A stretch of 36,983 nt of DNA from a virus, in the IMG/VR virus record IMGVR_UViG_3300049629_000825, positions 1 through 36,983 of that record; one strand, given 5' to 3'. The stretch's first letter is position 1, and each line of letters opens with the position of its first letter. The notes beneath the pieces were generated by a model. It saw only the letters and a list, made by a program, of their open reading frames with translations. It made no database searches and was not told the DNA's origin. Both the position numbers and the translations under genes were made by a program. This document shows positions 2,290 to 36,983 of the stretch, one piece after another.

Positions 2290-2476
2290 GGCGGCGACAT
2301 TCAAGCAGGGCGACGTTTCCAAGGCCATCAAGGTTGTGGAAAGCGGGGGCAAGTGTGTCGTGGCTGTGGACTTCCCGAAGGAAGGCGGGTTTCGCCTATT
2401 GCTTGGCGAACCAGTTGAGGTTGCCCCTATCCGCCGGAGCGGCGTGAACGAATGGGATGAGGTTCTCGCCATATGA
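2282..2476 (+). CDS. Small hypothetical protein before the integrase
   Basis: 64 aa. I chose the ATG at 2282, which overlaps the end of the ABA-sandwich gene by 8 bases; a longer in-frame start at 2264 only extends into that gene. The sequence (MTRAATFKQGDVSKAIKVVESGGKC...) is short-strand-rich and resembles the small excisionase-neighbour or regulatory proteins often found directly before alphaproteobacterial phage integrases. No helix-turn-helix is obvious. Its stop overlaps the integrase start, so the two are probably translated together. An excisionase role would be a guess from position. Confidence 0.6.
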   Translation: MTRAATFKQGDVSKAIKVVESGGKCVVAVDFPKEGGFRLLLGEPVEVAPIRRSGVNEWDEVLAI

Positions 2477-3537
2477 AAGCCGTGGCGAAGATTGACCTTC
2501 CTTACGTTCAGGTCTTCCGGGATCGTCACGGGACGCTTCGCCACTACTACCGCCGCCGTGGTCACACGACGACCGCTCTACCGGGTCAGGCCGGGTCTGC
2601 CGAGTTCATGGAAGCCTATCGGGAGGCCGAGGCCAGAACCCGCCCGCCCGTCGCTCAGAAGGCCGTCCAGCCCCGATCAATCCACGCCCTGGTGTCCAAA
2701 TACTATCAGTCAGTTGATTATCTGGATTTGCGGGAAAGCACGAAGCGCGGCTATCGCAACATGCTAGACCGCTTCCGCGAAAAGCACGGGGACAAGGGCG
2801 CCGCCAGTATCGAGCCCAAACACTTAGAAGCCATATTCCTTTCAATGGCCGCTACGCCCGGCGCGACCGTCAATCTTCGCAAGAGGCTCCGCAAGGTGTT
2901 CCGCCTCGCCGTCAGGCTGGGCTGGCGGTCTGACAATCCTGTTGACGCAACGGAGTTCCGGCGCAAGCGGTCGGGAGGCTTTAAGCCGTGGACCGAGGAC
3001 GACATAGCGGCCTATCAGGCTAGATGGCCTACAGGGACGCGCGAGAGGCTTGCGCTGGCCCTGCTGCTATACACCGGCCAACGCCGTAGCGATGTGGTCG
3101 GGATGGGGCGTCAGCACGTCTCAGCGGGTCGCATTAGCGTTCGCCAGCTTAAGACCGACGCGCGGCTAAAGATCAGGCTGCACCCGGCGTTGCTGACCGA
3201 GATCGAAGCGCATTCGGGGATGACGTATCTGACGACGCACCAGGGCGCCGCGTTCACTGCCGCAGGGTTCGGGAATTGGTTCAGGGAAAAGGCGCTAGAG
3301 GCCGGGGTCAATAAGACCGCTCATGGCCTACGCAAAGCCGCCGGTCGGCGCATGGCCGAGGCGGGATGCACGGCGAAGGAAATCGCCGCCGTGCTGGGGC
3401 ATCGGACGCTATCCGAAGTCGCGCGATACACGAGCGATGCCGATCAGGTTTTGCTCGCTGATTCCGCCGCCGATAAACTGGAGGCGAACGAAACGGGACG
3501 GGCCGGTGTCAAACCTGCTGTGTCAAACCATTCCTAA
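2473..3537 (+). CDS. int: Phage tyrosine integrase
   Basis: 354 aa. The N-terminal part has an arm-binding-like region (PYVQVFRDRHGTLRHYYRRRG) and a SAM-like core-binding domain (about residues 70-155). The C-terminal catalytic domain shows the tyrosine-recombinase set: Arg in YTGQRRSD, Lys in QLKTDAR, HGLRK, LGHRTLSE and the nucleophile Tyr in ARYTSD. All expected catalytic residues are visible, so it should be active. It catalyses site-specific integration and excision. Its 3' end carries two of the four GTGTCAAACC repeats that flank the attP core just downstream, the usual int-attP arrangement. Confidence 0.95.
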   Translation: MKAVAKIDLPYVQVFRDRHGTLRHYYRRRGHTTTALPGQAGSAEFMEAYREAEARTRPPVAQKAVQPRSIHALVSKYYQSVDYLDLRESTKRGYRNMLDRFREKHGDKGAASIEPKHLEAIFLSMAATPGATVNLRKRLRKVFRLAVRLGWRSDNPVDATEFRRKRSGGFKPWTEDDIAAYQARWPTGTRERLALALLLYTGQRRSDVVGMGRQHVSAGRISVRQLKTDARLKIRLHPALLTEIEAHSGMTYLTTHQGAAFTAAGFGNWFREKALEAGVNKTAHGLRKAAGRRMAEAGCTAKEIAAVLGHRTLSEVARYTSDADQVLLADSAADKLEANETGRAGVKPAVSNHS

Positions 3538-3568
3538 GCCCAACGCCATAAGGGGTTTCGGGGGAGGG

Positions 3569-3587
3569 TGGTAGGCCCGGAGGGACT
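3569..3587 (-). other. attP core: 19-bp match to a tRNA 3' end
   Basis: TGGTAGGCCCGGAGGGACT, read on the minus strand, has the form of a tRNA 3' terminus: T-loop end AGT, T-stem CCCTC, acceptor strand CGGGCCT, discriminator A, then CCA. No remaining tRNA parts are present, and the match breaks after ACT (the next bases are GTCTGAA rather than CGAA). This is the expected attP core for a phage that integrates into a tRNA gene and rebuilds its 3' end. The tRNA's identity cannot be read from this piece. Confidence 0.7.
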
Positions 3588-3645
3588 GTCTGAATTGAGT
3601 GAAATCAACGCGGTGCGGTGTCAAACCCCGTCAGGCGACCCCAAC

Positions 3646-3667
3646 CCCCGCTTGGCGTTGCGCGGGG
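3646..3667. terminator. GC-rich stem-loop between convergent int and Rz1
   Basis: CCCCGC (3646-3651) pairs with GCGGGG (3662-3667) around a 10-nt loop, between two convergent transcription units. There is no T-run on either strand, so terminator function is tentative. Confidence 0.3.
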
Positions 3668-3679
3668 AGTGTCAAACCT

Positions 3680-3991
3680 CTAGCGCCCGAATTGCCACCA
3701 TTTGCGCGGCTTCACCGTAGCCGCATGAGCATCCACCAGCGCAACCACGCCAGCGCGCCGGGCATCGCACACGGCGACCGCCGCCTCTTGGCGAACGATG
3801 AGCCCGCCCAAGTCTCCAACCGTCTCCAGCGCCTTTAAATCGGCCCTAGCGCACGGCTCCCGAAAGGTCGGGGGAATGTTGATCGTCACCGGCTGGGGAT
3901 TGCTCGCGCATCCGCTCAAGCTCACCGCGAAGGCTAGAGGCAAAAGCAGGATCAAGGGGCGCGGCGGCGCCGGGTGCGGCCTGGACAACAT
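3680..3991 (-). CDS. Rz1-like outer-membrane spanin lipoprotein
   Basis: 103 aa with a lipoprotein signal peptide: a basic, Pro-rich start, a hydrophobic stretch LILLLPLAFAVSL, then the lipobox LSGC (Cys at about residue 28). The mature part begins with ASNPQPVTINIPP, Pro-containing as in Rz1 proteins. Its 5' part overlaps the 3' part of the upstream Rz gene by 146 bases in another frame, a hallmark of Rz/Rz1 pairs. With Rz it joins the inner and outer membranes and disrupts the outer membrane at the last step of lysis. It is longer than lambda Rz1 (60 aa). Confidence 0.85.
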   Translation of the reverse strand: MLSRPHPAPPRPLILLLPLAFAVSLSGCASNPQPVTINIPPTFREPCARADLKALETVGDLGGLIVRQEAAVAVCDARRAGVVALVDAHAATVKPRKWWQFGR

Positions 3992-4211
3992 CGACTGACC
4001 TTTCAGCCTGGGTGCGGATTGTGACTTCGCTGCGGATCACACGTTCCGCAATCTCGCCGGTCTGTTGATTGAGGGAGGCTTGTTGCTCGGCAGCGGTCAC
4101 GCGGGCGTTGGCATTGGCGAGCGCCTTGCGGGTCCACCAGACGTAGGCGCCGCCCGCGAGGATAGCCGCGACGACCAGCCCGGCGATGATTAGGCGGGCC
4201 TGCGTAATCAC
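3846..4211 (-). CDS. Rz-like inner-membrane spanin
   Basis: 121 aa, GTG start overlapping the endolysin stop (GTGA). One N-terminal membrane segment (LIIAGLVVAAILAGGAYVWW, residues 7-26) is followed by a long predicted coiled coil rich in Ala, Gln, Glu and Arg (residues 28-80), then a flexible Ala/Pro tail. This is the i-spanin architecture: anchored in the inner membrane and spanning the periplasm to the lipoprotein partner. The overlapping Rz1 reading frame and the adjacent endolysin confirm the assignment. Confidence 0.85.
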   Translation of the reverse strand: MITQARLIIAGLVVAAILAGGAYVWWTRKALANANARVTAAEQQASLNQQTGEIAERVIRSEVTIRTQAERSVDVVQAAPGAAAPLDPAFASSLRGELERMREQSPAGDDQHSPDLSGAVR

Positions 4212-13401: not shown

Positions 13402-15172
13402 TTGCGTTTTGAACCGGCCTTGAGTAAACGGCTGACCCGGCCAGAATGCCGCCAGTGATTGCGCCCACCGCCAGCGGGTCTGTTCCTATTTGCATTGCGC
13501 CACCCCCCAGCCCGCCCACTGTAAGCAGCGACCGAATTGGCGTTCCGCTATCGGGAACAGTTGGCGGCAAAACCGTCATGGCGGCGTCTGTAAGGTCTTG
13601 CATGAGAGCATTGCCCTCAGAATAGGCCCTGTTACTTGCCGAGGTGTCGGTCGCTTGCACGGCGCTGTTAAGCTGCGGCGCCGTAAACCGGCCATCGGTG
13701 CGGGCCGTGGCGGTCATCTGCGATGCTTTGCGGATGCGAACCAGATTGGCCGTGGCTTCGTCCGCAGCCCTCACGCCAGCAAATGCAGTCGGGTCGGTGC
13801 GTTGCATAAGGCCGCCGACCTCAGATCGGAGGTCGATAAGAGCATCTCGCAGGAACCGTTGGGCTGGAGCGTTGGCCGATCCGGCATCAGCGGCGCGGAT
13901 GGCCGCCCCAAGGTCTGCGTCTATGGCTTTCCACGCCTGCCCGTCGATTGGACCCGCCAGGCGGGTGGTTACATCATCCACAAACGACATAAGGTCGCCA
14001 CGCAAAGCGGGCGGAACCCGTGGGGACGCGGCGACCGATTGAACACCCGCCGCAAACTGCTGATCGGGTGCAACCATTACGCCCGTTAGGGCGCGGTCGT
14101 AGGCGTTGCCAATTGCCGCAGTTACATCGCGCACGCCTTCACGGCCTACGGTTTGCGCCCGCCCACCCTGAATAGGCGCAAGCCCGCGACTAAGGGCCGC
14201 CTCGTCAAATGTATCGATTCCTCTGATTTGAGCCGACCTGATAGAATCGCCGAGAATGGGGATAGACGTTAAGCTGTCCTCCAATCGCTGGGCGGCTCCA
14301 CCCATCATCTGCCCTGGCGTAAGCAGAACGCCCTCATCCGACAAACGGCGGGCGTTACTTCTCGGCGCCGCACGGCGGGTGGCGGCGCTACGCGCTAACG
14401 CATTTCCGCCAGCGGCCAACGTCGAGCCAAGACCAAACGCTAAGGCAGTCTCACGCGCGGCGCCGGGAATCCGCTCCGGGAACGAGCCCTCCTGACGACC
14501 AAGAGCAAAGGGGGCATTTTGCGCCGCCGCCGTAGCACCAACCGCGAGGGGATTGGTAAACCCTACCCCGCTTGGGCGACCAGCCAAAGCTATGCCCACG
14601 CCCGTAGCCAGAGCGTTAGCGACCGGCTTGCGGCGGGCGTAGGACGCCTGCTGTTCTTGCTCAAAATCCATGCGGGCCTGACCCGCGACACGGGCCGGAA
14701 CCTGCACCGGCTTACCCATTGCGCGCCGAACAAGGTTTCCCGCGCCTTGCAGCGCGAAGTCCACGCCGTAGCCCATCTCGTCAAAGACGCCCGTTGATCT
14801 GGCGGCCTGCGTGAAAAAGTCGTCAGACGGCGCGGATTGGCGAAGGCCGAACGGCAGGGGCGCTGGCGTGTCCAGCTTGGCGATGCGCTCGCGCGCCTTG
14901 CCATAAGCTTCCCGCTCATTCGCAGGAATAACGATGGGATTTCCTTGCGGCCTGCCATCGGGTTTCGTCAGGCCGTTGACATTCTGGCGGACGTTGCCGC
15001 GAGCGTCACGGTAGAACGCGTCTTTGGGGATGCTTACGCCTTTGTAGCCGCCCGACAGGTCAAACGGCTTTGCGCGGGTTCCCTCACCCTTGAGGCGCGA
15101 CGGCTGCGGGATCGGCGTGAAACCGCCGCTAGTGGGCGCTTGATCGCCCTGGGGGATCGGAGTGAAGGCCAT
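13208..15172 (-). CDS. Ejection (injection) protein, P22 gp16/gp20-like
   Basis: 654 aa, ATGA overlap with the gene before. The N-terminus repeats FTPIP (residues 3-7 and 18-22), common on podovirus internal virion proteins. Residues about 165-275 contain several Ala/Gly-rich hydrophobic stretches, and the rest is helical and Ala-rich, as expected for proteins expelled with DNA to form a conduit across the envelope. Position as third protein after the gp7-like gene matches the 7-20-16 cluster of P22. Assigned from context and composition; no enzymatic motif seen. Confidence 0.7.
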   Translation of the reverse strand: MAFTPIPQGDQAPTSGGFTPIPQPSRLKGEGTRAKPFDLSGGYKGVSIPKDAFYRDARGNVRQNVNGLTKPDGRPQGNPIVIPANEREAYGKARERIAKLDTPAPLPFGLRQSAPSDDFFTQAARSTGVFDEMGYGVDFALQGAGNLVRRAMGKPVQVPARVAGQARMDFEQEQQASYARRKPVANALATGVGIALAGRPSGVGFTNPLAVGATAAAQNAPFALGRQEGSFPERIPGAARETALAFGLGSTLAAGGNALARSAATRRAAPRSNARRLSDEGVLLTPGQMMGGAAQRLEDSLTSIPILGDSIRSAQIRGIDTFDEAALSRGLAPIQGGRAQTVGREGVRDVTAAIGNAYDRALTGVMVAPDQQFAAGVQSVAASPRVPPALRGDLMSFVDDVTTRLAGPIDGQAWKAIDADLGAAIRAADAGSANAPAQRFLRDALIDLRSEVGGLMQRTDPTAFAGVRAADEATANLVRIRKASQMTATARTDGRFTAPQLNSAVQATDTSASNRAYSEGNALMQDLTDAAMTVLPPTVPDSGTPIRSLLTVGGLGGGAMQIGTDPLAVGAITGGILAGSAVYSRPVQNAINAIYRASTPGAARAAFGQLQAQAARNPALGSLVDQIGQELGLLPSSSSGRPSTPERQPEPMTR

Positions 15173-21589: not shown

Positions 21590-22690
21590 TCAGGAATCGG
21601 CGGCGGCGCAGAAGAAGCCCGTGACCATGCCGTGCTGCTTGCCGTTAAAGGCCAGCTTCTTGACGGCCAGGAGTTCTTCCACGGCAACGCCCGGACGGAA
21701 GGAGTAGTCCTTCGTCAGGTCCGTCTTCATGGTCGGCTCTTGACCCCAGGCAATGCCCACGGCCTGTTGACCGCACAGGAACACCGGGCGAACGTCCGAC
21801 GTGGAGGCGCCGATGGCGTCCATGTCGTAGGTCCCGCCGCCAGCCACGTCGTCGATCTCCGGCACTTCGCGGTGAATAATGCCGTCATAGATCAGGTCGC
21901 CGTCCTGGAAGATCGGGTTTGCGCCCACATCACGCGCACGAGCCTCACGGTTCGCCTGCGTCATGGTGGTGTCCGCCTTCAGATCCCGGAACGTCCGCGC
22001 ACCGTGGAAGGCGACGAAATACTCGCGGCCATCTTCGGTGTTGAACGGACGGATATGCGGGTCGGCCTGCTTGGCGATGCGCTTCATCAGCGACATCGCC
22101 GCCACGGTGCATTTGTCGTCCGTGGTGTCGAGGTTGCCAACGGCGGTCGCCCAGGTCGCCGAATAGTTGCTCTTCAGCTTGCCGAACAGCAGACGGTCGG
22201 CGTTGCCCGCGCAATAGGCGTTGCGGGCCGTGGCGTCAGAGGCCGACATGGTAACGGTCGTGTCACCAGTGGTCACGAGCGACAGCATCGCGGTGATGAT
22301 ATCGTCCCGCAGCTTTTCGGCCTCCCAGACCTTCAGCATGGTCTTGGCGGCGCCGAACAGGTCGATTTCGGTCTTGTAGCTGGTGGACTTGGGGACGCGG
22401 ACAGCGTTCCGGCGCCAATCAACGGCGATGGCGCAGTTGTAGTTGCCGAGTTCCTCTTCGTTGCCGTCGAGGGTGGTCGAGCCGGTCACACCGTTAGAGG
22501 TCAGCTTCGTGATCAGCGGGATGTTGATCGTCTTGCCCGCTTCTTCCTGAAGCTCATACTTGGCGATGATGATCGAGCCGTCCGACCGGCCCATGTAGGG
22601 CTTGAAGCCCGAGGCGCGGACGTATTCGGCGAAATACTTTTGGGAAAAGACCTGCTTCTCAGAAGCAGAGGCGAGGGCGACTTCGGCCAT
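21590..22690 (-). CDS. Major capsid protein (N4-gp56 / DUF4043-like)
   Basis: 366 aa. The N-terminus (ASASEKQVFSQKYFAEYVRA, SGFKPYMGRSDGSIIIAKYE), the phrase GKTINIPLITKLTSNGVTGS and the C-terminal segment RPGVAVEELLAVKKLAFNGKQ closely resemble N4-gp56-family coat proteins, which have an HK97-like fold. Order portal, scaffold, coat supports it. It should be the most abundant virion protein. No maturation-protease gene is seen nearby, consistent with scaffold-driven assembly. Confidence 0.85.
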   Translation of the reverse strand: MAEVALASASEKQVFSQKYFAEYVRASGFKPYMGRSDGSIIIAKYELQEEAGKTINIPLITKLTSNGVTGSTTLDGNEEELGNYNCAIAVDWRRNAVRVPKSTSYKTEIDLFGAAKTMLKVWEAEKLRDDIITAMLSLVTTGDTTVTMSASDATARNAYCAGNADRLLFGKLKSNYSATWATAVGNLDTTDDKCTVAAMSLMKRIAKQADPHIRPFNTEDGREYFVAFHGARTFRDLKADTTMTQANREARARDVGANPIFQDGDLIYDGIIHREVPEIDDVAGGGTYDMDAIGASTSDVRPVFLCGQQAVGIAWGQEPTMKTDLTKDYSFRPGVAVEELLAVKKLAFNGKQHGMVTGFFCAAADS

Positions 22691-28992: not shown

Positions 28993-29530
28993 GGCTAATC
29001 TCCTCCAGGGTCATGCCCTGTTGCTTGGCAAACGCGACTTCGGAAAGTTGGGGGGACCATTCGTCAGGAAGGCGGGTTCCCTTTGGATCGGGTTTCGCCT
29101 GGGGCTGCGCTTGCGCGGCCTCTAATGGTTCTACTGACGGTTCTACTGACGGTTCTAACGTAGTGGGATAGGACACTGTGTCCGGTAAGATCGGCTCCAA
29201 ATGTCCGGTAAGATTGTCCTCAAATGTCCGGTAAGGTTTTCCCTTAGCGGACACAGTGTCCTCAAAGATTGTCAGCGTGATCAGGTCACTCGCGCGGTAT
29301 CCGTCGCGCCTGCGGCGATGCTCTTTCGTCATCAATCCCGCATCGATAAGCGATACAAAAACCCGGCGGATTTGGCGGTCTGTTAGGCCGGTATCGAGCG
29401 CCAATCGGGCTTGCGACGGCCAGCACCGGCCCTCAGCATCGGCAAAGTTTGCCAACGCCAAGAGAACCAGCTTCTCAGAGGGGGACACCCCCTGAACAGC
29501 AAAGGCAGCGGTGATAGCCTGAACGCTCAT
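28784..29530 (-). CDS. Phage replication initiator (lambda O-like organisation)
   Basis: 248 aa. The N-terminal 90 residues are a winged helix of the HTH_36 type (GVSPSEKLVLLALANFADAE, CWPSQARLALDTGLTDRQIR). A low-complexity linker (about 105-145) holds the EPSVEPSVEPL repeat, and its DNA carries the 23-bp iterons. The C-terminal part has WSATWRNWCRNRR, a common ending of such initiators. An origin inside the initiator's own linker is the lambda O arrangement. It should bind the iterons and recruit the host replicative helicase. Confidence 0.8.
   Translation of the reverse strand: MSVQAITAAFAVQGVSPSEKLVLLALANFADAEGRCWPSQARLALDTGLTDRQIRRVFVSLIDAGLMTKEHRRRRDGYRASDLITLTIFEDTVSAKGKPYRTFEDNLTGHLEPILPDTVSYPTTLEPSVEPSVEPLEAAQAQPQAKPDPKGTRLPDEWSPQLSEVAFAKQQGMTLEEISLEADKFRDFWCAKPGAGGRKSDWSATWRNWCRNRRSGAGVAGGARSGGNRQGPSDFASIIAERRGRAGV
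29127..29158. repeat. 12-bp tandem repeat in the initiator linker
   Basis: GGTTCTACTGAC occurs at 29127-29138 and 29139-29150, followed by a partial GGTTCTAACG. It is in phase with the initiator frame and encodes EPSV repeats, so it may be a protein-level linker expansion; it directly adjoins the iteron array. Confidence 0.7.
29171..29261. other. Candidate replication origin: 23-bp iterons between two palindromes
   Basis: TGTCCGGTAAG occurs at 29179, 29202 and 29225, exactly 23 bp apart, with extended similarity (GAT....TCC...AAA); a fourth, diverged TGTCC follows at 29257. The array is bounded by GGACACTGTGTCC (29171-29183) and GGACACAGTGTCC (29249-29261), perfect 13-bp palindromes. A 23-bp period is not a multiple of three, so the repeats encode different residues each time, which points to a DNA-level role. 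Location inside the initiator gene matches lambda-type origins. Confidence 0.75.
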
Positions 29531-30960: not shown

Positions 30961-31313
30961 CAGGATTCCCACCTTTTCTGAAAGCCCCGGCTTTGCAGTT
31001 TGCGCGTCGGCGCTGGCGCAATGCCGAGGTGTTTTTTACGGGTTCGGTCGGCCTTCGCCCGTTGGGCAACGTCAGCCGCCGTCTTCTCGCGGTGCTTGTC
31101 ACGAAGGGCCGGAAACAGGTTGCTTTCAGCGTGGGCGCCGCCGTTGCAGAGGGCTTGGCGGTGATCCAGGTCCCACTGGTCCCCGGCCATGATCTTGCGG
31201 CCCGTGAGGTGACAGCGGCCCCCTTCACGTTCCCAAATGCGAAGGCGAACCCGAGCGGGGACTTTCGCGTCTGGAGTAGAGCCGATCCACTCAGCGACGG
31301 TGCGTCCGGTCAT
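30960..31313 (-). CDS. HNH endonuclease
   Basis: 117 aa from the ATG at 31313, overlapping the IbrA stop; a GTG two codons upstream is possible. HNH core: CHLTGRKI (about 34-41) in place of a CxxC pair, DLDH (48-51), CNGGAHAESNLFPAL with N65, and KHREKT with H74. Such free-standing small HNH proteins nick or cut DNA, in packaging or mobile-element roles. Here it sits between the IbrA-like and GcrA-like genes rather than near the terminase, so a function tied to the IbrA/B cassette or to replication seems more likely (inference). Confidence 0.8.
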   Translation of the reverse strand: MTGRTVAEWIGSTPDAKVPARVRLRIWEREGGRCHLTGRKIMAGDQWDLDHRQALCNGGAHAESNLFPALRDKHREKTAADVAQRAKADRTRKKHLGIAPAPTRKLQSRGFQKRWES

Positions 31314-32560
31314 GAACACGCCTCCAAGCCTAATGAAAGCTGGTATTCACCAACTCCCCATTCAGCTTTCCGGCGCTTCATAAGGTTAAGATATTTCTTG
31401 TAACCTTCCGACTTGTGCTGCGAAAACCCCATCCCCTTTCCCCAATAGTCATTGCGGAGAAGAGATTTACACACACGGCGCCAAGATGGAGCGCGCCGCG
31501 CCGCTTCCATTTCGTAGTGTGCTTCGTCGGGGATGCCCTCAGGATAACCCCTCGCCATCCACCACTTTTGAAATAGAACGATCTTGTTCTGGTAATGCTC
31601 TTGCGTCTTTGGCGGCATGGAATTGACCAGCAGCGCAGCAAACGTCTGCCACGTGTGGCCAGCGGGTTTGGTAATCCCGCGATAACCATTGATGTTGCCC
31701 CACTCTTGAACGTAGAGCGCACCGCCGTTCGCGCCGTTGACCCTGGCGACGACACGCGCCCACGTCTCCGGCTCGACCAGGTGGAACAGCCACAGTCCCC
31801 GCCGCTGATCGTCGCCGTAGGGCTGACAAATCCGCATGTGCCCCATCGGCACACCGGCCTTGTGCATTAATTCATAGAGGCGGTTATACGGCTTGGCGGG
31901 ATTGGCGGCGTGGTAGGTCCACAGGTCCGCACCCTTCCAGTCATAGATTGGATACGAGTTGTAGACATGTTCCGTGACCTTCGACGTATCGCGCCGACCC
32001 TTCCATGTTTCCTTGCGGGACTGGGCAATGGTCCGAAAGCGGTTCAGGCTTTCATCGCAGCGAATCCCGACAAAGCAGGCCGTCCGCTCGCCTTGCGAAT
32101 ACCATTCGCCAAACAGCGGAACGAACTCCTCAAACTCCATGCCGTCGTGGAAAAACGGATAGAAGGACGGGTCGCTAATGCCTTGTTCCGGTAGCTCCCT
32201 GATCCAGCCATCACGGGCGACGGGATCCCAGCACTTCCAGAACGGCTCATAGACCGAGACGGCGTTGCGAAGGTGGATCGGCAAGCAAACCCAATGCAGA
32301 TCAATCAGGTCTGCATACATGTCGATGCAAACTTGCGCGTGATCCATCGTCAGCTTGTATTGGCCTTCCAGATCGACCAGAAGCAGGCCGAACTTGCGAC
32401 CCCTCTTGCGCGCCTCATCCGCAACAAGGTGCAGCATGACGGTGCTATCCTTGCCCGCCGAAAACGAAAGATAGACGCGCGGGAACTCGTCAAAGGTCCA
32501 GGCGATACGCTGGCGCGCGGCCTCTAGAACGTTAATGCCAATGGGGTTCTTAAGCGCCAT
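31310..32560 (-). CDS. IbrA-like PAPS-reductase-family protein
   Basis: 416 aa, family length. The PP-loop SAGKDS is at residues 34-39 in PRVYLSFSAGKDSTVMLHLV; GLLLVDLEGQYKLTMDHAQV and the C-terminal DUF3440-like part (CFVGIRCDESLNRFRTIAQS, YPIYDWKGADLWTYHAANPA, PSWRRVCKSLLRNDYWGKG) match IbrA. Members share the ATP-pyrophosphatase fold used in sulfate reduction and in DndC-type DNA phosphorothioation. In E. coli IbrA acts with IbrB as a co-activator; the chemistry is unknown. An IbrB-type gene lies two genes upstream. Confidence 0.85.
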   Translation of the reverse strand: MALKNPIGINVLEAARQRIAWTFDEFPRVYLSFSAGKDSTVMLHLVADEARKRGRKFGLLLVDLEGQYKLTMDHAQVCIDMYADLIDLHWVCLPIHLRNAVSVYEPFWKCWDPVARDGWIRELPEQGISDPSFYPFFHDGMEFEEFVPLFGEWYSQGERTACFVGIRCDESLNRFRTIAQSRKETWKGRRDTSKVTEHVYNSYPIYDWKGADLWTYHAANPAKPYNRLYELMHKAGVPMGHMRICQPYGDDQRRGLWLFHLVEPETWARVVARVNGANGGALYVQEWGNINGYRGITKPAGHTWQTFAALLVNSMPPKTQEHYQNKIVLFQKWWMARGYPEGIPDEAHYEMEAARRAPSWRRVCKSLLRNDYWGKGMGFSQHKSEGYKKYLNLMKRRKAEWGVGEYQLSLGLEACS

Positions 32561-35925: not shown

Positions 35926-36569
35926 CCGATCTGATTTGGGAAGGCGAACGCGCGCCGCTGGCAAAGGCCCTGGTGGCCGCTCAGAAGGCGACCGAGGCCG
36001 TTAAGAAGGCCAGCACTAACCCGGCTTTCAAGTCCAAGTATGCCGACCTGTCTGTAGTGGTGGAGGCCGTCGTTCCGGCCCTCAATGCCGCTGGCGTCAG
36101 CGTCCTGCAATTCCCGGCGTTCAACGGCGAGCTTGTCAGCGTGGCGACGACGCTGTTGCACGAAAGCGGCTCATCGGTCACGGCGACCCTGCACCTTCGC
36201 CCGTCCAAGCTGGACCCGCAGGGCGTGGGTTCGGCCATCACCTACGCCCGGCGCTATGCGCTCATGGCGATGACAGGAGCCGCGCCCGAAGATGACGACG
36301 GCGCTGCAGCTAGTGGCCCGCGTGACGCCGCCCCAGCCCGTCCGGTTCAGCCTCCCGCCGCGCCAACATTGGCCGAGCGCGCTAACCGGCTGGAATCCGC
36401 CATGCGTGCGAAGGCCGGTCAACCGGAGGCGGTGCAGAAGGTGTTTGACCAGGGCGCATCGCTTTGCGCGGAGCTTGACCAGAAGTCGCCCGAACGTCTC
36501 GCCGAACTTGAGACGCTGTTGAAGATGCTGCTGGCCGTGCCGGAAGCCGTCCCAATGGCCGCAGAATGA
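35922..36569 (+). CDS. erf: Erf-family single-strand DNA annealing protein
   Basis: 215 aa. The N-terminal half has the ERF pattern: PLAKALVAAQKATEAVKKAS, NPAFKSKYADLSVVVEAVVP, LLHESGSSVTATLHLRPSKL and GSAITYARRYALMAMTGAAP, where 'G.aiTYarRYaL....gi..' is diagnostic. The C-terminal half is a Pro/Ala linker plus helices. Erf (P22) anneals complementary single strands in phage recombination and circularisation. Gp157 follows and NinB lies just beyond the window junction, forming a recombination module. Confidence 0.9.
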   Translation: MTDLIWEGERAPLAKALVAAQKATEAVKKASTNPAFKSKYADLSVVVEAVVPALNAAGVSVLQFPAFNGELVSVATTLLHESGSSVTATLHLRPSKLDPQGVGSAITYARRYALMAMTGAAPEDDDGAAASGPRDAAPARPVQPPAAPTLAERANRLESAMRAKAGQPEAVQKVFDQGASLCAELDQKSPERLAELETLLKMLLAVPEAVPMAAE

Positions 36570-36983
36570 GCGCCCCATCCTACAGCCTGGAACGGGCTAC
36601 AGCCGCCGCCAAGGCCCTTGCCGACGCCATCCGAACAGCCGACGCCACGGCAGAGGATGACCTGATCGCGGACATGATCGAGGGCGAAGGGGACGCAATG
36701 GCGGGCGTCTCCCGCCTGCTGCGCTGGATGGCCGAGCGCAATGCCTACATTGCCGCGCTTAAGGAAGCCGCGTCCGATATGGCAGAGCGCCGCAAGCGGT
36801 TTGAAGAGGGTGTGGATACAGCCCGCGCTGCACTGGCGACGTTCATGGACACGGTAGGGCTGACCAAGCTGGAACGCCCGGAGGCGACCCTATCGCTTCG
36901 CCCGGCTGGTCCGTCTGTCGTCTACGGCGCCGACTTTAACGCGGAGGCTCTGCCCGAGGAATTGCGCCGCTGGAAATGTGAAG
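36566..36983 (+). CDS. Gp157-family protein, N-terminal part (runs off the window)
   Basis: 139 codons, ATG overlapping the Erf stop. The order is a helical start (LERATAAAKALADAIRTADA), DDLIADMIEGEGDAMAGVSR, LLRWMAERNAYIAALKEAAS, MAERRKRFEEGV, then ALATFMDTVGLTKLERPEAT and LSLRPAGPSVVYG, with LPEELRRWKCE at the edge. These match Siphovirus Gp157 proteins, which accompany Erf/RecT-type annealases and whose role is not established. Its C-terminal end is at bases 1-60. Confidence 0.85.
   Translation, partial: MSAPSYSLERATAAAKALADAIRTADATAEDDLIADMIEGEGDAMAGVSRLLRWMAERNAYIAALKEAASDMAERRKRFEEGVDTARAALATFMDTVGLTKLERPEATLSLRPAGPSVVYGADFNAEALPEELRRWKCE

Follow-up and report, generated by a model that had tools for sequence, protein, structure and literature searches.

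We analyzed a stretch of viral DNA of 36,983 bp (IMG/VR record IMGVR_UViG_3300049629_000825), hereafter called the window, in which a tyrosine integrase gene (int) and a pair of overlapping lysis genes converge. Four copies of a 10 bp repeat lie at this junction on either side of a short sequence that reads as the end of a tRNA gene. The features of the locus, named here according to the interpretation developed below, are the following:

2473-3537, plus strand: tyrosine integrase gene, 354 aa (Pfam PF00589, E 1.7e-15; PHROG 1 integrase, E 6.5e-39)
3506-3515, plus strand: left arm-type site L1, exact repeat GTGTCAAACC, within the int coding sequence
3520-3529, plus strand: left arm-type site L2, GTGTCAAACC, within the int coding sequence, direct repeat 14 bp from L1
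3569-3587, minus strand: attP core, TGGTAGGCCCGGAGGGACT, 19 bp that match the 3' terminus of a tRNA-CAT gene, single occurrence in the window
3573-3587, no strand assigned: imperfect inverted repeat AGGCCC-GGA-GGGACT in the core, read from the sequence
3603-3615, plus strand: IHF-like site, AATCAACGCGGTG, matching 8 of 9 consensus positions
3618-3627, plus strand: right arm-type site R1, exact repeat GTGTCAAACC
3669-3678, plus strand: right arm-type site R2, GTGTCAAACC, 51 bp beyond R1
3680-3991 and 3846-4211, minus strand: overlapping spanin-like lysis genes (PHROG 456 and 214, Rz-like spanins)

The four repeats reported by the first-pass annotation at 3506, 3520, 3618 and 3669 were exact and in the same orientation, and no further copy, exact or with one mismatch, was found across the 36,983 bases. 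About 0.05 exact copies would be expected in the entire window from its base composition, against the four observed; GTGTCAAACC was also the sole 10-mer of the window with four occurrences inside 200 bp, and an equally dense 10-mer repeat arose in 2 of 200 first-order Markov simulations. Both left repeats fall within the int gene, in its last codons as had been described, and the converging lysis gene has its stop codon next to the end of R2. The gaps between the core and the inner repeats measured 39 bp (left) and 30 bp (right), and the spacings within the pairs 14 bp (left) and 51 bp (right), all in one orientation; the earlier placement of the core "midway" was thus loose and the near-symmetry wrong.

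The core spans one T-stem strand, one acceptor strand, the discriminator and the CCA of a tRNA, read on the minus strand, as the same annotation had proposed. An exact scan found it in 63 IMG/VR stretches, in more than half of which ARAGORN recognizes it as the 3' terminus of a tRNA-CAT gene, CCA included. The search of alphaproteobacterial tRNA genes (the class of Ponticaulis) recovered the exact 19-mer in 5 of 385 sampled genomes, each time as the end of a tRNA-CAT gene. Although ARAGORN labels these tRNAs Met(cat), for most of those compared the identity to Escherichia coli ileX was slightly above that to metT (56/76 versus 53/77 for the tRNA of genomes G359 and G066; 54 each for that of the relative L318). 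The target gene has a CAU anticodon and is tentatively assigned to tRNA-Ile2 rather than elongator tRNA-Met. Within the core, AGGCCC-GGA-GGGACT is the probable pair of core-type integrase sites around the predicted crossover region. A like arrangement, AGTCCC-TAG-GGGACG, occurs in the relative L297, and similar ones in three others (L266, L330 and L347). The identical 19 bp core was also present, with arms TGTAAACC, in a contig from a sibling sample (3300046001_006174, L015), which suggests two phages that compete for one tRNA gene.

The integrase showed an arm-binding N-domain, a SAM-like core-binding domain and a catalytic domain. Its catalytic set was R204, K227, H284, R287 and Y319, with the GH motif present; in an alignment of 15 relatives all were invariant except R287, which was nearly so. 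The AlphaFold model (pLDDT 86, pTM 0.61) presented a three-strand-plus-helix N-domain (strands 12-16, 22-26 and 34-36, helix 43-56), a helical core-binding domain and the catalytic domain, and its top PDB matches were full-length lambda integrase (1z1b the best, 338 columns). On the basis of the model this is a lambda Int-like enzyme with predicted arm binding, of the arm-binding-domain group described in PMC8138268. No excisionase-like gene was recognized beside int; a 70-aa ORF just upstream had no family match.

The integrase has roughly 500 relatives, and the arrangement of the right half proved common among those compared. Nineteen right halves, from attPs or from far ends of integrated elements, were aligned on R1: the R1-R2 spacing was 50-53 bp in all of them, and the core started about 50 bp before R1. 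In the window, TGTCAAACC of R1 begins 50 bp past the core start, compared with 50-52 bp in integrated relatives. Most of the 19 also had an IHF-like match at about -22 from the ACC of R1, with a summed IHF score of 137 versus 105 ± 3.2 (s.d.) in simple base shuffles; a second IHF-like site in the R1-R2 spacer, present in some relatives, was absent from the window. The free attPs of relatives had the layout of the window, and a counterpart of L1 was present both in these attPs and, in integrated relatives, at the end that carries int. Altogether the geometry was shared, almost base for base, by about 20 relatives.

Phage genes lie on both sides of this locus; the spanin-like genes at 3680-4211 indicate that phage DNA continues to the right of it. 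A P22-type capsid gene (21590-22690, minus strand; PF13252 type) was 51% identical to that of Pseudanabaena phage Pam1. In relatives with a 99% identical integrase, DNA matching window positions 36297-36978 runs into DNA matching the window start, and the junction shows that the window lacks 41 bp between its ends; it is therefore an almost complete circular map that is cut within a gene and has the attP in its interior. Together with the phage genes on both sides this agrees with the statement that the molecule is not an integrated prophage, and by its gene content and joined ends the window represents a free, almost complete phage genome. Direct terminal repeats of at least 10 bp were not found in it, and a megablast search of its first 24 kb against phage records gave no match. 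Elsewhere the genome carries a PAPS reductase/DUF3440 gene (31310-32560, minus strand; PF01507 and PF11922) and, at 29179-29235, three tandem copies of a 23 bp unit with TGTCCGGTAAG.

Integrated relatives indicated how such a site is used. Around 19 of 32 loci encoding related integrases (~27-50% identity) in alphaproteobacterial genomes lay 1-102 bp from the 3' end of an opposite-strand tRNA gene, and a dozen tRNA species were concerned, with Ser, Glu, Phe, Leu, Lys, Arg, Gly, Gln, Thr, Cys and CAT among them. Five genomic elements could be read at both ends: G283 and G343 (tRNA-CAT), G334 (tRNA-Phe, repeat TGTCCCACC), G281 (tRNA-Ser) and G002 (tRNA-Cys, a 42 kb element of Sphingopyxis panaciterrae). 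All five had TGTCWAACC-type repeats (in G334, TGTCCCACC) on both the int side and the far side; in a motif scan four presented a full pair at each end and G334 a single site per end. In the four (G343, G283, G281 and G002) the core was present at both ends, with one repeat pair at each. Among ten relatives' contigs inspected for the right arm most prophage records were trimmed at int, and the informative one (L053/L374) held a 12.6 kb element bounded by TGGTAGGCCCGGAGGGA at 1433 and 14048. Its right pair is at 1433 and its left pair, followed by a whole tRNA, at 14048; its core is the window's own 17 bp core, in a tRNA-CAT gene. The repeats flanking the core thus part to attL and attR upon integration in G343, G283, G281, G002 and L053. 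The relative L318, with an integrase 68% identical to that of the window, showed CTGTCTAACCGTCTTTGTCTAACC, a direct pair spaced by 14 bp like the left pair of the window, then the core and then a complete tRNA-CAT gene; in L318 and L053 alike the tRNA remained complete beside int. These layouts lend support to the claim of an intact attP and of integration into a tRNA gene. Prophages of the kind that had been envisaged, bounded by two copies of the core and a repeat pair on either side, were found among relatives, but a prophage of the window phage itself (int above 95%) was not found in the sampled genomes, nor were its attL, its attR or a host.

This last result, together with the assembly of the phage as a free genome, would fit a phage turned virulent that retains its attP by descent as a dead, unused relic. 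We consider this very unlikely: the catalytic residues of the integrase are intact, each of the four arms is a perfect copy, and relatives with a 99% identical integrase preserve both arms and core although their neighboring DNA is different. A role of the repeats as operators or iterons bound by a regulator or replication protein, with the tRNA-like piece as coincidence or relic, would account for their form, given that such sites are typically short direct repeats, and for the TTGACA contained in GTGTCAAACC (on the minus strand, GGTTTGACAC). However, a tRNA-end core lies between the pairs at fixed distances, a search of 3300-3900 gave no promoter-like site, and TGTCTAACC, the arm word of some relatives, lacks TTGACA; since the pairs split between attL and attR, at opposite ends of the integrated relatives, this role is refuted there and for the window it is extremely improbable. 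The idea of a transcription terminator that separates the int operon from the lysis operon converging on it deserves practically no credence: the position between converging genes, the inverted left arms of some relatives and the GC-rich inverted repeats in their R1-R2 spacer recall one, but no terminator-like site was found in the region, its folding energy was no better than that of shuffles (z 0.3 to 1.1) and direct left arms occur in many attPs of the family.

We conclude with high confidence that positions 3506-3678 are an intact attP and that the phage, which is temperate and has a P22-type capsid gene, would form a lambda-like intasome and insert at a tRNA-CAU 3' end by means of the integrase encoded just upstream. 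Six elements of this conclusion are directly supported: the sequence, the tRNA identity of the core, the integrase class, the conserved geometry, the layout of integrated relatives and the free state. That the attP and integrase of the window phage are active is what we infer from them. In the proposed mechanism the integrase would contact the four GTGTCAAACC sites through its N-terminal domain, and the inverted half-sites of the tRNA-derived core through its core-binding and catalytic domains. IHF would bend the DNA at 3603-3615, bringing arms and core together as in the lambda intasome, and strand exchange would take place around AGGCCC-GGA-GGGACT. By recombining with the matching 3' end in a tRNA-CAU gene of the host (probably tRNA-Ile2), the phage would become inserted while the tRNA stays whole, with int and L1/L2 beside the restored tRNA and R1/R2 at the far end.

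Lambda offers a close comparison, with a three-domain integrase (the full-length best PDB match), paired arm sites on either side of the core, and an IHF-like site between the core and the first right arm. The window differs in that its core derives from a tRNA 3' end, whereas the lambda attB is intergenic, and in its two left and two right arms, its 51 bp right spacing and its arm word GTGTCAAACC; Xis and Fis sites, known from lambda, were not identified in the window attP. Sinorhizobium phage phi2LM21 (MF614627) has a related integrase (34.5%) and an att site in the 3' end of an opposite-strand tRNA gene just past int; unlike the window it uses tRNA-Phe(GAA), for which a 17 bp repeat was reported (PMC5537653), and the passages of that source covered here do not mention arm sites. 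The IntS system of the Mesorhizobium element ICEMlSymR7A, in which int and attP suffice for integration, is likewise alphaproteobacterial, with several arm-type sites and a phe-tRNA gene as target, but belongs to a conjugative element and has five arms of consensus TGKTGGTATC in a 283 bp attP (PMC11963761). Besides the capsid of Pam1 (51%), the window resembles the Pseudanabaena phages in the integrase of Pan3 (43%; ON968454.1), after whose int gene TTTGGCTA repeats stand 52 bp apart with a TGG-starting core-like sequence, TGGTGTGCCCGAGAGGGGT (an encoded CCA). The arm word and core of Pan3 are different and its reported host is a cyanobacterium; this core might reveal the true lysogenic host, although it had no match in 58 alphaproteobacterial genomes.

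Arm words varied among the phages (TGTCAAACC, TGTCTAACC, TGTAAACC, CGTCAAACC and TGTCTCACC) and were uniform inside each, with a mean distance of 0.17 within a phage versus 1.83 between phages (12 attPs, mostly tabulated by hand); an automatic repeat search gave no clear repeat set for several of 80 integrase relatives. When pairs of TGTCTAACC were scanned at spacings from 35 to 65 bp, a peak appeared at 52 bp (20 of 65 pairs), and a related integrase was near 11 of the 28 pairs spaced by 50-53 bp versus 3 of the remaining 37. A scan of IMG/VR for TGTCAAACC pairs gave no clear spacing peak and few integrases close by, and was uninformative perhaps because the word is common. The left pair was direct in the window, L318, L015, L320-L325, L266, L309 and L347 (at 14 bp in L318 and L015) and inverted in G343, G281, G002, L297, L277 and L264, inverted pairs accounting for about half of the relatives overall. 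In one close relative (L003, 7097-7257; also L056 and L317) the 51 bp R1-R2 unit was copied in tandem, giving five arms, three of them right. In L309 and L323-L325 the int stop codon lies within the outermost left arm (GTC-TAA-CC, GGG-TAA-ACC), so that the end of int and the attP are fused.

The attP described here is well preserved and of an ordinary, lambda-like kind, as the integrated relatives confirm; it marks an uncultivated phage as temperate and names its target gene. There is about an even chance that it is also one of a large and previously undescribed family of attPs, from phages and elements alike, whose arm word varies with the integrase while the frame is fixed over many tRNA targets. 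That frame would comprise a core starting about 50 bp before R1, an IHF-like site, an R1-R2 spacing of 50-53 bp and a left pair either inverted or direct. Because the geometry is so regular among relatives, integration sites are predictable by pattern alone. If the family is real, it would provide ready-made data on how tyrosine integrases select their arm sites, and arm-word changes between relatives could reveal which residues of the arm domain choose the arm sequence.
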